DNA of 32,493 bases from contig JAUNGB010000061.1 in NCBI GenBank assembly GCA_030524715.1, positions 1 through 32,493 of the forward strand, read 5' to 3'. The notes below the pieces were generated by a model. That model made no database searches and was not told where the DNA came from. It saw only the letters and a program-made list of their open reading frames with translations. Positions 17,850 through 23,385 of the stretch are shown here, one piece after another. This DNA comes from Eubacteriales bacterium. Lineage in GTDB: Bacteria; Bacillota; Clostridia; Lachnospirales; Lachnospiraceae. The translations under genes were made by a program, and so were the position numbers. The number at the start of each line of letters is the position of its first letter. Position 1 is the stretch's first letter.

Positions 17850-18737
17850 TTAATTTTGCAATATAGAAGATGCAATTTCCAGAAAACGCTTCGTCCCTTT
17901 ATTTGGTTCCGTAGAATAAACAATCCCATAAGGGATGCTGTAAGGAACTTCAAAAGGAATGGTAACTAAGGACGGATGAATATCATTCCAGCCGTCCAGC
18001 GTCAGCAGGATATAATCATTTTCTTCGCAGTAGTTAAAGACTTCAATATCGTAATGGTGCGGGGCATCTGCAATGGCAATCTGCGGATGCCCTTTTTCTA
18101 TGTCCTGCCGGATCTGATCGTTGATCGGGCTGTTTCCCGGTTTCATAATCATCAGCGTTTCACCGTACAGATCGGGAATAGAAACGCTGTCCTTTCTGGA
18201 CAACCGATGCTTTTTAGACATGGCGAGGCAAAACCGGCGGTTCCCTAACTCAAGAAAACGGCACAAATCGCCTGCAGCGGCCGGATCATAGCTGCCGGTT
18301 ATCAGATCGTATTTCTTCCCTATATCCCGGTATGCTGTGCCTGTATTGGTATCTTCAAAGGGAATGACTTTCAGGCGAAATTCTGGATATTCATCGCTGA
18401 TCCTGCCCCATAAATCCATCAGGTTTTTGCATGGATATAAAGCCGAGGTTCCAACACGGATGGTCTGTCTGTTTATCGCCTCTGCCTGATAAGCGCGGTC
18501 AATCGCTTCTTCGGAGTATTGTATCATAAACTTTGCGTCCTTATAGATAGACTTCCCCGCTTCTGTCAGATGGATGCCGCGCGGGGTTCGGATCAGGAGC
18601 TGTAATCCGATGTGTTCTTCTAAAATATTCATCTGCTTCATAATTGCAGTAGAGGATATGTATAAACTTTCAGCCGCCTTTGTAAAACTTCCCCGGTCTG
18701 CAACTTCTACAAAAACTTTGAGCATTGCATTATACAA
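17850..18737 (-). CDS. LysR family transcriptional regulator
   Basis: A 295-residue LysR-type regulator. The N-terminal helix-turn-helix reads FVEVADRGSFTKAAESLYIS, then the linker helix LEEHIGLQLLIRTPRGIHLTEAG. An effector-binding domain covers about 90-295. The TTG start at 18737 is supported by AAGGAGG seven bases upstream, and starting at MYN is usual for this subgroup. It is transcribed away from the flavodoxin-reductase fusion across a 112-bp gap containing a 25-bp palindrome, the classic layout of a LysR regulator and its target. The inducer is unknown; redox or aldehyde stress would fit the targets. Confidence 0.92.
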   Translation of the reverse strand: MYNAMLKVFVEVADRGSFTKAAESLYISSTAIMKQMNILEEHIGLQLLIRTPRGIHLTEAGKSIYKDAKFMIQYSEEAIDRAYQAEAINRQTIRVGTSALYPCKNLMDLWGRISDEYPEFRLKVIPFEDTNTGTAYRDIGKKYDLITGSYDPAAAGDLCRFLELGNRRFCLAMSKKHRLSRKDSVSIPDLYGETLMIMKPGNSPINDQIRQDIEKGHPQIAIADAPHHYDIEVFNYCEENDYILLTLDGWNDIHPSLVTIPFEVPYSIPYGIVYSTEPNKGTKRFLEIASSILQN

Positions 18738-18849: not shown

Positions 18850-20259
18850 ATGCCTGAACTGATCGCGTATTTCTCACGGGCAGGCGAAAACTATGTGAAC
18901 GGAAACATCCTGAACCTGAGCGTGGGAAATACAGAGCTGGCAGCAAAATTCATACAGGAGGTCACAGGCGCTGATTTATATAAGATCGAACCGATTCTGG
19001 AATATTCCAAAGATTATTCGGAATGTCTGGAGGAGGCAAAAGAGGATCAACGCAGACAGGCCAGACCGGCGTTAAAAAAACCATTTCCCGATATGAAAAA
19101 GTATGAGGTTATTTATTTGGGCTATCCGAATTACTGGGGAACGATGCCGGTGTTCACTTTTCTGGAAGGATGTAGGCTTGACGGGAAAATCATCCGCCCT
19201 TTCTGTACCCATGAGGGCAGTAAAATGGGGCATAGTCTGGATGATATAAAAAAGATTTGCCCGGATGCAGAGGTAAAAAATGGCCTTGCCCTTTGCGGCG
19301 CAGGGATTCATTTTGCAAAAGAAACAATTATGGAATGGCTGAACGCCCAGGGGCATACCATTATGCCTGAAAAAAAACAGGCGAACAGAGGAAAGGAGAT
19401 TGATGTTATGCAAACGACAACATTAAGTAATGGCGTGGAAATGCCGATGGAGGGATTTGGCGTTTTTCAGGTGCCGGAAGCAGAAGTATGCGAGCAGGCG
19501 GTCAGCGATGCGCTTGCAGCAGGGTATCGCCTGATTGATACGGCGGCGGCTTATTTTAATGAAGAAGCGGTCGGCGCAGCAATCAAAAAAAGCGGGATTC
19601 CCCGTGAAGAACTGTTTATCACGACAAAGCTGTGGATTCAGGACGCGGGATATGAAAATGCAAAAAAGGCGTTCCAGACTTCACTGGATAAGCTGGGGCT
19701 TTCCTACCTTGATCTTTACCTGATCCATCAGCCTATGAATGATTATTATGGTTCATGGCGCGCTTTGGAGGAATTATACGAAGAAGGAAAGGTACGGGCC
19801 ATCGGCGTCTGCAATTTCTACCCGGAGCGTCTGGCAGACCTTTGTGTCAACGCACGGATTAAGCCTATGGTAAATCAGGTGGAGCTGCACCCCTTCTTCC
19901 AGCAGGCAGGCGCTCTGGAAAACATGAAGGAGTTTGGCGTCCAGCCGGAGGCATGGGGACCGTTGGCAGAAGGCAAGCATGGCATTTTTACAAACGAGAC
20001 ATTGAGTGCCATTGCACAGAAATATGGGAAATCGGTAGCGCAGGTTGTCCTCCGCTGGAATACTCAGCGGGGTGTGGTAATCATCCCGAAATCCGTTCAT
20101 AAGGAGCGCATAGAAGAAAACCTGAACATCTGGGATTTCTCTTTGAGCGAGGAAGATATGGCCGCTATCAGCAGCCTTGATCTGGGACACAGCGAGATTA
20201 TCGACCATAGTGCGCCTGAAACCGCAAAATGGTTAAACGGTTGGAAAATTCACGACTAA
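18850..20259 (+). CDS. flavodoxin - aldo/keto reductase fusion protein
   Basis: 469 residues with two complete domains. Residues 1-165 are flavodoxin-like: [12 protein letters not shown] for the FMN phosphate loop and [12 protein letters not shown] for the second flavin loop. Residues 187-469 are an aldo/keto reductase with the catalytic tetrad Asp230, Tyr235 ([12 protein letters not shown]), Lys260 (ITTKLWI) and His293 (YLIHQP), and a C-terminal NADPH-binding [12 protein letters not shown]. The linker ([11 protein letters not shown]) encodes AAAGGAG at 19392-19398, nine bases before the ATG of residue 187, so the reductase may also be made separately. This looks like two neighbouring genes fused by loss of a stop. 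The gene is the first of the LysR-controlled cluster. Substrates are unknown; aldehyde or quinone detoxification is an inference. Confidence 0.9.
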
Positions 20260-20272
20260 GAAGGCAGTGACA

Positions 20273-20897
20273 ATGAAAAAGATTTTATCCATGTTGATGG
20301 TGTGTGTTATGGTGCTTTCTCTGGAGGCCTGCGGAAACAGCGCAGAATGAAACGGAAGGCAGCAGCCCGGAGGCGACACAGGAAGAAAGCAGCACACCGG
20401 GAGCAGAAGAAACGGAAACCGAAGGAAATGAAGAAAGCGAGGAAACAGAAATGGAAGAAACAAAAAGAGTAGCTTCTGACGGAGCGCAGATGCAGACCGA
20501 TGATCCGTCCATGCCGACCAGGGTTTTGGAGGAAGGAACCAGAATCAATATGCACTTTGGTGACACGGTAATTCCGGGAATCCTGAATGACAGCACCACA
20601 GCGCAGGCATTTATCGAAATGCTGCCGCTGACCGTACATGAAAGCAGATATTCCCATGATTTCTGCGGTTCAATGGGAGAAAGCCTTCCTTTTGATGAGG
20701 AAGATGAACGATATGGCTGGCTGAACGGCGATATTGCGATTGGTACGGATGTTCCGTGGTTTACGATCCTGTTTGCCGATGAAGATATTTCTGAGCAGTA
20801 TGGGAACCTTGTCAATATCGGTGTGATCGACTGTGAGCTTTCACGAATTTCCGATTTGGACGGCAGTTACGATGTGCTGATTGAGTTGGCCGAATAA
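20273..20897 (+). pseudogene. cyclophilin-like lipoprotein, frameshifted
   Basis: The ATG at 20273 encodes a lipoprotein signal peptide (MKKILSMLMVCVMVLSLEAC, lipobox LEAC) but hits a stop at 20348-20350 right after CGNSAE. The next frame then continues directly with ETEGSSPEATQEESS, a Glu/Ser/Thr-rich linker, and a cyclophilin-like domain from about INMHFGDTVIPGIL to YDVLIELAE. Removing one base at 20348 joins the two into a normal lipoprotein of about 208 residues. No homopolymer is present at the break, so it is likely a real mutation or a sequencing error, not phase variation. Without repair, only the downstream part from a poor internal start could be made and would stay in the cytoplasm. 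Confidence 0.75.
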
Positions 20898-20950: not shown

Positions 20951-20970
20951 CAAAGATGTTGGAGGAAACT

Positions 20971-21357
20971 ATGAGCAAGACGATTGACTTTCTGCATAAG
21001 GCAGGAACCTTTTACCACGCAAGCGTGGACGGAACCGAGGCAAGAGTACGCCCGATCAACTCCGTGATTTCCTATAAAGGGAAGATTTATTTTGAAACCA
21101 GCAACCGAAAAGAAATGTACCGGCAGATGCTTCAAAATCCAAGCGTTGCAATCTCCGGTATGGTAGACGGCAAGTGGATTCGGATCACCGGAAAAGCTGT
21201 GATGGATGAATCGGACGAGGCAAAGCAGGCCATGTTTGATACATTACCGGCGTTAAGAGATGTGTACTCCTATGAGGAAATGGCTCCTTACTATCTTACC
21301 GATATGAAAGCAGTTGTATATTCCTTTACCGAGGAGCCTGTTGCATTAGAAGATTGA
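20971..21357 (+). CDS. pyridoxamine 5'-phosphate oxidase-like flavoprotein
   Basis: A 128-residue split-barrel protein of the PNPOx-like FMN-binding superfamily. The core GTFYHASVDGTEARVRPIN, then GKIYFETSNRKEMYRQMLQNP and VAISGMVDGKWIRITGKAV, is typical of small flavin reductase-like members. The ATG at 20971 has GGAGG five bases upstream; the in-frame ATG at 20956 has no such site. It is likely an FMN- or F420-type oxidoreductase, not a true vitamin B6 enzyme. It sits in the redox cluster between two aldo/keto reductases. Confidence 0.85.
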   Translation: MSKTIDFLHKAGTFYHASVDGTEARVRPINSVISYKGKIYFETSNRKEMYRQMLQNPSVAISGMVDGKWIRITGKAVMDESDEAKQAMFDTLPALRDVYSYEEMAPYYLTDMKAVVYSFTEEPVALED

Positions 21358-21399
21358 TATGGTGCGAACAAAAATTATGTTGGAGATGGGAGGATACCG

Positions 21400-22410
21400 A
21401 TGAAAAAAAGAAAACTTAGGGAACTTGAAGTTTCCGAAATTGGCATGGGCACGATGGCATTTTCACATGGATATGGGAAAATCCCTGATCGGCAATATAG
21501 CCTTGAAGCTATCAGGGCCGCTTTTGATTATGGATGCACATTTTTTGATACGGCAGAAGCCTATGGAGCGCAGCTCTATTACGAAGGGCATAATGAAGAA
21601 ATCGTAGGCGAAGCGCTGAAGGATGTGCGAAAGGATGCTGTACTTGCCACAAAATTTCACTTTCAGCCCGGAGATTATGAAGAAGGCACAGAGCTTTATA
21701 CTACCGTAAAGCGCCATTTGACAAAATCATTGATCCGGCTTCAAACAGACTATGTGGACTTGTATTATTTACACCGCGTCACCGACAAGGTTCCGGTGGA
21801 GGCGGTAGCGGAGGTTATGGGACGGCTGATAAAAGAAGGCTTGATTCGTGGATGGGGACTGTCGCAGGTGTCTGTTGATGTACTGAAACGGGCGGATCAG
21901 ATCACGCCGGTTTCTGCGGTACAGAACCTTTACAATATTCTGGAACGGGATTGTGAAGATGATATTTTCCCCTACTGTATAGAACATGGAATTGGCGTTG
22001 TCCCATTCTCTCCCATTGCCAGCGGCCTGCTTTCCGGCAAGATTACTGTCGGCACTGAATTTGAAAAGGTAGACGATGTGAGAAACTGGGTTCCGCAGCT
22101 AACAAAGGAAAACATTGCGGGCAACCAGCCGATCCTCGATATTATTCAGGAATACGCCGGAAAAAAGGATGCCACAAACGCACAGATTTCCCTGGCATGG
22201 ATGCTGCATAAATATCCCAATGTAGTCCCGATTCCGGGATCGAAAAATAAAGAGCGTATTTTGGAGAATCTTGGCGCAGATAAGGTTTCCTTTACAGATG
22301 CAGAATTTACTGCGCTGGAAACAGCTCTGGCCGGCTGCAAGATTTATGGACACAGAGGCCATGTGGAGATGGAAGGCAAAGGATTCTTGAATAAGAAACC
22401 CCTCCGGTAA
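21400..22410 (+). CDS. aldo/keto reductase
   Basis: A 336-residue NADPH-dependent oxidoreductase of the aldo/keto reductase superfamily. The catalytic tetrad is Asp50 and Tyr55 (TFFDTAEAYG), Lys85 (VLATKFHF) and His125 (YYLHRV). Supporting motifs are GMGTMAFSHGYG at the N-terminus, LIRGWGLSQVSVDVL, VVPFSPIASGLLSGKI, and the cofactor loop VVPIPGSKNKERILENLGA. Length and motif order match the YakC/AKR13-like group that reduces or isomerises small carbonyls. A GGAGATGGGAGG stretch precedes the start. It is a separate paralogue, not a duplicate, of the reductase domain at 19408-20259. Confidence 0.92.
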   Translation: MKKRKLRELEVSEIGMGTMAFSHGYGKIPDRQYSLEAIRAAFDYGCTFFDTAEAYGAQLYYEGHNEEIVGEALKDVRKDAVLATKFHFQPGDYEEGTELYTTVKRHLTKSLIRLQTDYVDLYYLHRVTDKVPVEAVAEVMGRLIKEGLIRGWGLSQVSVDVLKRADQITPVSAVQNLYNILERDCEDDIFPYCIEHGIGVVPFSPIASGLLSGKITVGTEFEKVDDVRNWVPQLTKENIAGNQPILDIIQEYAGKKDATNAQISLAWMLHKYPNVVPIPGSKNKERILENLGADKVSFTDAEFTALETALAGCKIYGHRGHVEMEGKGFLNKKPLR

Positions 22411-22464
22411 AGATAATTCTTGAAAGCGGGGCGCCGCCAGACATCAGTTTAAGGAGAGATTTTG

Positions 22465-23385
22465 ATGAAAACAGAAAATGACAGATATAAGCATATTACA
22501 ACGAACAGCCGGATTTATGATGTGATGGCGCATCCTGCTTTTGGAGATTGGGGACGTCTGATTTTCCCGTGGGATGGAACCAGCAGATATTCATCGTCTA
22601 TGACCATGAAATCAGTACCGGAACTTCATTTATGGCATACGAACCGGAACGTACAGTCTATGGTTGACGGCGTAAACCGTATGATTGACGACAGGAACGC
22701 AGGGTTTCGGGTATTCTACGATATTTATACAGATAAAGAAAAAGCAGCCGATCCGTCCAAAAAGCTAACGGGCCTGTTCTTCTTCCGGGGAGAACCGGGA
22801 AAACCTTTTGCTGTGATCTGTCCGGGAGGCGGCTTCTATTATGTGGGTTCCCTGCATGAAGGATTTCCTCTGGCAATGGAACTGAACAAAAGTGGATTCA
22901 ATGCGTTTGTCCTGAAATACCGGGTAGGCCAGGGGGAGACGGTTGCAAGCCGCGACCTGATTGCCGCTGTAAATTATATTCAGGCTCATGCGGCAGAACT
23001 TGAGGTTGCAAAAGAAAACTATTCCCTGTGGGGAGGTTCTGCAGGGGCAAGAATGTGCAGCAACGTAACCTATGGAGAAGGCGGAATCAGACGTCCGCAG
23101 GAGCTTTTATCCCCGGCAGCCTCCATCATTGCGTACACCTATTATGCAGGAAATCCGGCTTTTACGCGGGATGATCCGGCGGCGTATTTTATCGTGGGAA
23201 CTGAGGACTGGATTGTACCGTGGCGGGATGTGAAAGAACGCGCGGAAGAAATGGAGGCCGCAGGCATCCCGGTAGAGTGCCATATTTTGAAGCATACACA
23301 GCATGGGTTTGGCGTTGGTGCGGGAACACCGGCGGAAGGCTGGATGGATCAGGCCGTTTCGTTTTGGAGAAAAAAAATGAAGTAG
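22465..23385 (+). CDS. alpha/beta hydrolase (esterase)
   Basis: A 306-residue serine hydrolase of the acetyl-esterase/BD-FAE-like type. The oxyanion loop is FAVICPGGGFYYVGS, the nucleophile elbow is GGSAG in YSLWGGSAGARM, the acid is in IVGTEDWIVPW, and the histidine in TQHGFG. The ATG at 22465 has AAGGAG eight bases upstream; the adjacent TTG is not needed. There is no signal peptide, so it is cytoplasmic. Substrates may be acylated sugars or small esters. It is cotranscribed in orientation with the reductases. Confidence 0.87.
   Translation: MKTENDRYKHITTNSRIYDVMAHPAFGDWGRLIFPWDGTSRYSSSMTMKSVPELHLWHTNRNVQSMVDGVNRMIDDRNAGFRVFYDIYTDKEKAADPSKKLTGLFFFRGEPGKPFAVICPGGGFYYVGSLHEGFPLAMELNKSGFNAFVLKYRVGQGETVASRDLIAAVNYIQAHAAELEVAKENYSLWGGSAGARMCSNVTYGEGGIRRPQELLSPAASIIAYTYYAGNPAFTRDDPAAYFIVGTEDWIVPWRDVKERAEEMEAAGIPVECHILKHTQHGFGVGAGTPAEGWMDQAVSFWRKKMK

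Follow-up and report, generated by a model that had tools for sequence, protein, structure and literature searches.

The window (the whole 32,493-nt stretch of DNA analyzed here) contains a frame of 469 codons that runs from ATG to TAA without a stop (18850–20259, plus strand) and encodes a Flavodoxin_4 domain followed by an aldo/keto reductase (AKR) domain. Pfam recognizes both, at fusion residues 25–165 (87.4 bits) and 215–443 (178 bits), in each case above the curated cut-off of 24. The fusion is real in sequence: a first-pass annotation had described the two domains as lying in a single frame, and this is borne out. The same annotation correctly placed an AAAGGAG motif nine bases ahead of an internal ATG. 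The features of the locus are as follows.

17850–18737, minus strand: divergent LysR-type regulator, in the same place in the split relative L009 and in the Pusillibacter plasmid (both described below)
18850–19407, plus strand: Flavodoxin_4 domain and element-encoded tail, 186 codons ahead of the reductase start (Pfam 90.8 bits for this part alone; relatives 3klb, 4ici and 4j8p)
19135–19152, plus strand: conserved W-loop, WGTMP-V, with 2 codons absent after 19149 (compared with 24 of 24 comparable flavodoxins)
19338–19396, plus strand: copy of a dispersed two-hairpin leader element, encoding most of the protein linker (model R1, 19338–19390, E 1.5e-5; model R2, 19339–19396, E 1.5e-5)
19343–19356, plus strand: hairpin P1, ACGCC (CAGG) GGCAT, 4 of 5 pairs (by comparison with other copies)
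19364–19383, plus strand: hairpin P2, TGCCTG (A8) CAGGCG, whose loop, 19370–19377, is eight A (by comparison with other copies)
19392–19398, plus strand: ribosome-binding site AAAGGAG, nine bases ahead of the ATG at 19408–19410 (from the sequence)
19401–19403, plus strand: TGA at the position of the split relative's flavodoxin stop, out of frame here (alignment with L009)
19408–20259, plus strand: AKR with its own ATG, 283 aa, catalytic D, Y, K and H present (Pfam; alignment)

The first-pass annotation regarded both domains as complete. Both are indeed recognizable in Pfam, but the flavodoxin lacks two residues of its W-loop, which are present in 24 of the 24 flavodoxins aligned through that place (26 were put in, and two did not align there). 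A six-base repeat unit has been lost in the W-loop (19135–19152), removing the two residues. In the AKR, columns D211, Y216, K241 and H272 are invariant in all 14 rows, the window included; we take these to be the AKR catalytic tetrad. The domain is like the DkgA-like structures TM1009 (1vp5), 4mhb, YvgN (3f7j) and E. coli DkgA (1mzr), with 56–58% identity to 1vp5 and 4mhb. The ribosome site and start within the frame support the idea that a free 283-residue reductase could be produced from the same gene.

An AlphaFold model of the fusion shows good domains (mean pLDDT 90.7, pTM 0.62), with pLDDT below 50 at residues 174–183, within the linker, which is predicted to be disordered. Among the best 50 structural matches listed, there was no solved structure spanning both domains, the longest alignment covering 314 of the 469 columns.

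The junction and its split relative

The nearest relative found is in Enterocloster alcoholdehydrogenati (locus L009; Lachnospiraceae), with 80% identity in the flavodoxin and 93% in the AKR. There the two domains are encoded by two genes, the TGA of the flavodoxin lying three bases ahead of the ATG of the AKR. A scan of genome contigs with six peptide patterns gave 51 loci, and only L009 has both domains at high identity; its split arrangement was also recovered, as G119, in a search of 299 Lachnospiraceae genomes. Against this relative, dN/dS is 0.108/1.19 for the flavodoxin part and 0.035/1.44 for the AKR part, and these low values argue that both domains of the window protein have been under purifying selection.

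Alignment of the two loci reveals a net 43 extra bases in the window, between the end of the flavodoxin and the start region of the AKR. The letters at the junction are AAA GGA GAA TGA in L009 versus AAA GGA GAT TGA TGTT ATG in the window. Because 43 is not a multiple of three, the flavodoxin frame is displaced by one, past the TGA and into that of the AKR. The first-pass annotation spoke of a ribosome site kept in the linker; a site is present, but the linker itself belongs to a family of dispersed hairpin elements, most copies of which terminate in a ribosome site.

When the genome was searched with 78 bases of the junction, matches were found at C144:19941–19993 (80%, E 8e-6) and C90:41935–41963 (90%, E 0.004), the second being part of a third copy. 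Each of these copies lies just 5′ of the ribosome site of another gene, which by eye is alcohol-dehydrogenase-like in the case of C144 and is a DUF3737 gene in the case of C90. A pattern drawn from these copies gave 11 matches in the genome compared to 0 for the reversed control, although at least one of the 11 (C122:4470, inside an ABC gene) is probably a chance match. The alcohol-dehydrogenase-like gene (L230 from 1502, C144 near 20000) turns esterase-like after ∼110 residues and is possibly rearranged or decayed.

Two models of the element were used. Model R1 comprises 39 units, among them the window copy; model R2 has no unit of this genome, and in a search of 586 kb it recovers the window copy with an E value of 1.5e-5. 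That copy ranks among the weaker members (28 bits, four of five pairs in P1). In isolation it is not clearly more stable than shuffled sequences (z –1.38; 15 of 200 shuffles reach its stability), and its minimum-energy structure differs from P1 plus P2, which counts against the reading given below; alignment with other copies does allow the two stems to be drawn. The copies at C144 and C90, folded in the same way, do give P1 plus P2 (z –2.48 and –1.71, respectively).

The junction thus offers a filled and an empty version of one orthologous site, filled in the window and empty in L009. R2 gave no element match at E up to 1 in L009, L061, L062 or L133, and R1 gave nothing better than E 0.23 in 17 split-pair loci; nor is the genome of the split relative, G119, among the 33 of 299 family genomes that are positive with R2. 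The frame in which the linker is read has no stop within the element, and copies are found in reading frames elsewhere. In the corresponding frame, a pair of units at C48 forms the C-terminal tail, EIPQGDTTMAIRP, of a gene that is permease-like by eye; at C209 an open frame contains one unit, in phase with the window copy.

From these comparisons, we infer that insertion of the dispersed two-hairpin element at the junction fused ancestrally adjacent flavodoxin and AKR genes, a reading to which we assign a probability of roughly 0.77. In the ancestral state, the two genes would have been adjacent behind the divergent LysR regulator. An element copy (net 43 nt) would then have entered the junction, just ahead of the AKR ribosome site, in the window's lineage, and flavodoxin translation would miss the old TGA (19401–19403) and run through the element into the AKR frame. 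Under this scheme, both the fusion and free AKR (from ATG 19408) would be made, with free flavodoxin largely lost. The direction of change would be insertion in the window's lineage and not loss in the relative. A deletion in the split relative, together with a small frame change in the window, may instead account for the difference, and a close split ortholog is available from one species only. According to the first-pass annotation, a recent, strain-specific stop loss would be indicated if close relatives had separate genes and a junction stop. Such a stop is present in one species, E. alcoholdehydrogenati, but the cause looks like insertion of a hairpin element and not a point stop loss.

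The eight-A loop of P2 bears on two further explanations. One is an assembly or sequencing error in the run, the true junction having a stop. The run is a homopolymer, and a second frame break occurs 1 kb downstream, in a lipoprotein gene. But a check of 585 kb of this genome found 62 conserved genes whole and 0 broken (23 and 0 in a control genome), so general sequencing error is unsupported; this test used queries of at least 200 aa, and the short lipoprotein gene falls outside it. Similarly, 150 of 150 listed ABC domains run unsplit from profile position 1–12 to 135–137, one of them with an inner stop (131 further candidates were left out of scoring). General frame errors of the assembly are rejected by these two counts. 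Since an error at A8 would, moreover, still leave the element at the junction, we regard this explanation as unlikely. A local assembly fault, or decay around the locus, is possible, given that the downstream lipoprotein gene is frame-broken here and intact in the relative. In that gene, the lipoprotein signal sequence (20273–20350) is out of frame with a cyclophilin-like domain (ORF 20304–20897); the gene is intact in L009.

The other explanation is a slippage switch at A8, whereby mRNAs with nine A would stop the flavodoxin at TGA 19401, mRNAs with eight A would give the fusion, and both products would come from one gene. Frame 2 after the A run does reach a TGA four bases ahead of the ATG. 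One paper (PMC1088944) reports slippage on runs of nine A and suggests it on eight for some bacteria, which places eight A at the lower limit of the transcriptional slippage reported there. A run of eight A is seen in 0 of the 69 other units of alignments A9 and A10, and the sole seven-A run lies outside P2. Because no other unit of either alignment has eight A, the run is not a feature of the element, and we consider a slippage switch very unlikely.

A dispersed two-hairpin leader element

The element unit is ∼50 nt long and consists of two hairpins. Units frequently occur in tandem; they lie on the same strand as the following gene, and most of them stop at its ribosome site. P1 has five pairs, with CAAG and GCAAG among its loops; a linking stretch resembling ACCNNTA leads to P2, which has four to six pairs and a variable loop, and the unit finishes in purine-rich sequence, where the ribosome site is often found. 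Tandem units are spaced 44–59 bases. Arrays of four tandem units occur ahead of one gene at L302 (G255 C70) and at L260 (G090 C175).

The 41 references for R1 drew on 37 pattern matches, less two false ones (L236:2622 and L245:1501), with four other units and the window added; 39 of these were aligned, with the irregular L259:1499–1551 and L260:1620–1672 left out. At E up to 1e-3, R1 is positive in 18 of 64 genus genomes and has 21 matches in this one. Alignment A10 contains 31 units from 28 loci in 17 other genus genomes, none used for R1 and two of them weak (15 and 19 bits). R2, a covariance model built solely from these 31 units (which R1 had picked), matches 33 of 299 family genomes, or 33 of 298 genera, with up to 22 copies per genome (E up to 1e-5, stricter filters). 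A longer pattern was found in 5 of the 299 family genomes, with 20 matches in G090, compared to 1 of 299 for the reversed control. The single match of G019 to this pattern, inside a gene, looks like chance.

To what extent is the structure conserved? In A10, which was fitted to the model structure and hence favors it, 85.4% of cells pair (P1, 90.6%; P2, 78.4%), compared to 71.0% in shuffles, none of 500 being as high. Sliding the partner by one to three columns lowers the paired fraction to 18.5–48.8%. Two-sided changes are seen in 34 cells versus 11.0 in shuffles, and in seven of the nine pairs, and the covariation score of 0.332 (shuffles, 0.124) was reached by 0 of 500. An earlier stem count was biased, because the best stem was chosen for each unit. 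At one orthologous site (L268 and L255; the gene there is identical at 170 of 217 aligned residues between G307 and this genome), the two copies resemble each other in P1, and P2 still pairs although each of its arms has been replaced. The gene at this site is von Willebrand-like by eye, with no Pfam match at 1e-10.

With one unit counted per locus (28 of the 31 units), a same-strand start and a ribosome-site-like stretch lie within 250 nt in 25 of 28 loci, and in 21 of these 25 the start is within about 20 bases of the end of the match. A divergent start lies upstream in 2 of 28. One caveat here is that the same-strand count leans towards ribosome sites, because purine-rich sequence at the end of the element can itself satisfy the criterion used for a ribosome site. 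Among 20 downstream proteins hand-picked from 33, 18 have Pfam matches, of about 15 kinds and with no shared pathway; they include ribosomal protein S8, gyrase B, SAICAR synthetase, YidC, malic enzyme and four ABC proteins. A regulon for one pathway was rejected, the downstream Pfam kinds being without a common theme.

In Rfam 15, ten element loci (the window copy included) gave 0 matches at the gathering threshold, and 13 loci gave one match at E up to 5, away from the element. The best sub-threshold match of the window stretch is to the KDPG-aldolase RNA; it covers the element (19332–19399) and scores 15.3 of the 54.6 bits required. Membership in a known Rfam family was rejected, no threshold being reached in the loci tested. 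Among the search-result entries of literature searches, no description of the element was found, and its core letters led to the entry for one paper only, on Helicobacter in iguanas. On these comparisons, the element is a structured, dispersed, strand-oriented leader family, seemingly uncatalogued.

Several known repeats are similar in part. Rickettsia palindromic elements (RPEs) are short dispersed palindromic repeats that can be read as protein sequence, and by this description they are like the element, which encodes the linker here and the permease-like tail at C48. Unlike RPEs so described, the element has a pair of hairpins, occurs in tandem, is located mostly ahead of ribosome sites with a single orientation and belongs to another bacterial family. 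BOX, REP and ERIC intergenic repeats are dispersed, hairpin-forming and modular or tandem. The element resembles them in all these respects, and in being intergenic, but differs in that its unit mostly terminates at the following gene's ribosome site, and in its occurrence here in Lachnospiraceae.

What might the element do? Most likely, it would act in cis on the mRNA, the hairpins before the ribosome site setting the translation or stability of the next gene. It could instead be a selfish palindromic repeat, not a regulatory RNA, spreading through intergenic sequence and tolerated chiefly where it directly precedes a ribosome site. The lack of a common theme among downstream genes, the tandem arrays and the patchy distribution (18 of 64 genomes in the genus) are consistent with a selfish repeat. 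The predominance of one orientation, the compensatory stem changes, and retention of the element at the L268/L255 site while both P2 arms were replaced argue against it. We regard a selfish repeat as a serious contender, if somewhat short of an even chance.

On balance, we lean toward a broader view, namely that the Lachnospiraceae harbor tandem leaders of an undescribed family (∼50 nt, two hairpins), which spread into junctions in one orientation and at ribosome sites, keep their stems by compensatory change, and can fuse operon neighbors into new multidomain proteins, flavodoxin–AKR being an early case. The locus would illustrate, concretely, how a repeated hairpin element can join two genes into one and provide the linker without loss of the downstream start. 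Among gut bacteria of this family the element is widespread, and it lies at translation starts. Because it is widespread, lies at the translation start, covaries and reaches no Rfam threshold, its role, as regulator or selfish repeat, is directly testable.

Flavodoxin and AKR genes in other genomes

Among the loci collected, 179 AKR matches have an N terminus, and in 33 of these rows a flavodoxin lies just upstream. Of the 33, three are window-locus copies, 17 have separate genes, and the 13 fusions all belong to an exported lineage. In the split rows, the AKR is at least 55% identical in 11 and at most 36% identical in six; a single arrangement enters as both L009 and L061, so the split rows number 16 if it is counted once. 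Outside the window, two-domain rows among the matches listed from 64 genus genomes are 28–41% identical. With the flavodoxin gene as DNA query, 391 class genomes yielded, beyond the window, weak partial matches in five.

The split flavodoxin/AKR neighbor pairs include some on plasmids of Bacillota and Pseudomonadota. On a Pusillibacter faecalis plasmid (NZ_AP023421), a divergent LysR gene, flavodoxin and AKR are arranged as in the window, but as two genes with a stop between. An Achromobacter insolitus plasmid (NZ_CP026974) likewise has divergent LysR, flavodoxin and AKR genes, but with an extra AKR between LysR and flavodoxin and with the genes split by a stop. For Streptomyces plasmids, both gene names, flavodoxin and AKR, appear among the matches listed. 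Literature searches yielded, among their search-result entries, no description of a flavodoxin–AKR fusion or operon.

In a tree of 141 AKR domains, made by a quick method and with many weak forks, the window groups with L061 and L015, amid unfused AKRs. The 13 exported fusions fall in another clade of 15 rows (support 98), although 5 of the 13 are unlabelled in the tree owing to a cut-off; the other two rows of the clade, L146 and L093_3108, are not counted as fusions. Close kinship between the window fusion and the exported fusions was rejected, the AKR clades being separate. A conserved ancestral fusion was also rejected, given the split nearest relative and the position of the window in the tree.

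The 13 exported-looking fusions come from 11 Lachnospiraceae genomes (L090–L099, L102 and L153), and there is one further candidate of this kind in G323. By eye, ten of the 13 N termini have a hydrophobic signal and a cysteine (lipoprotein-like, one with a twin-arginine start), and three have an Ig-like or other surface-type region. Like the window protein, they have a flavodoxin-like domain and then an AKR in one frame; they differ in the secretion or surface N terminus, in the AKR clade and in a G + H motif. A fold prediction gave mean pLDDT 84.6 and pTM 0.61. A profile of the exported-fusion alignment matched 33 of 299 genomes at E up to 1e-110, and nearly the full profile was matched without stops at only 12 places in 10 genomes, all of them sources of the alignment, and in the window itself. 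The remaining matches are mostly AKR-only, cut or with stops.

All 13 exported fusions keep the AKR tetrad and have IPGSS..H in place of IPKS..R, with the K and R of the cofactor motif changed to G and H. These positions presumably correspond to the residues changed in the protein of entry 1m9h, a mutant that we take to have been made to use NADH. The PDB title of 1m9h gives a K-to-G change plus a change at an arginine in 2,5-diketogluconate reductase. By analogy, NADH use by the exported fusions may be guessed at.

Since these 13 proteins belong to another lineage, the flavodoxin–AKR architecture does exist. Given this, the window protein could be a selected bifunctional enzyme, in which an FMN domain exchanges electrons with an NADPH reductase and the internal start adds free reductase. 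The repeated adjacency of flavodoxin and AKR genes (17 split rows, plasmids included), the separate lineage of exported fusions in the same family, and purifying selection on both window domains are in keeping with such an enzyme. Against it, the close relative is split, the linker is element sequence and predicted to be disordered, the pTM of 0.62 gives no support for a fixed arrangement of the domains, the W-loop of the flavodoxin is two residues short, and the exported fusions are not near relatives of the window protein. A selected bifunctional enzyme is, in our estimate, quite unlikely. That the fusion is conserved, or selected as an oxidoreductase, finds no support, as the sole close ortholog pair found is split and the window AKR lies among unfused AKRs in the tree. 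We favor fusion by element insertion; the fusion is probably recent and probably without selected function, the fused protein being more likely a by-product than a selected electron-transfer enzyme.

On the 3′ side of the fusion, the window encodes a PNPOx-like protein, a second AKR and an alpha/beta-hydrolase-like protein (20956–23385), a cluster that somewhat resembles AKR/hydrolase/cupin clusters on a Klebsiella plasmid.
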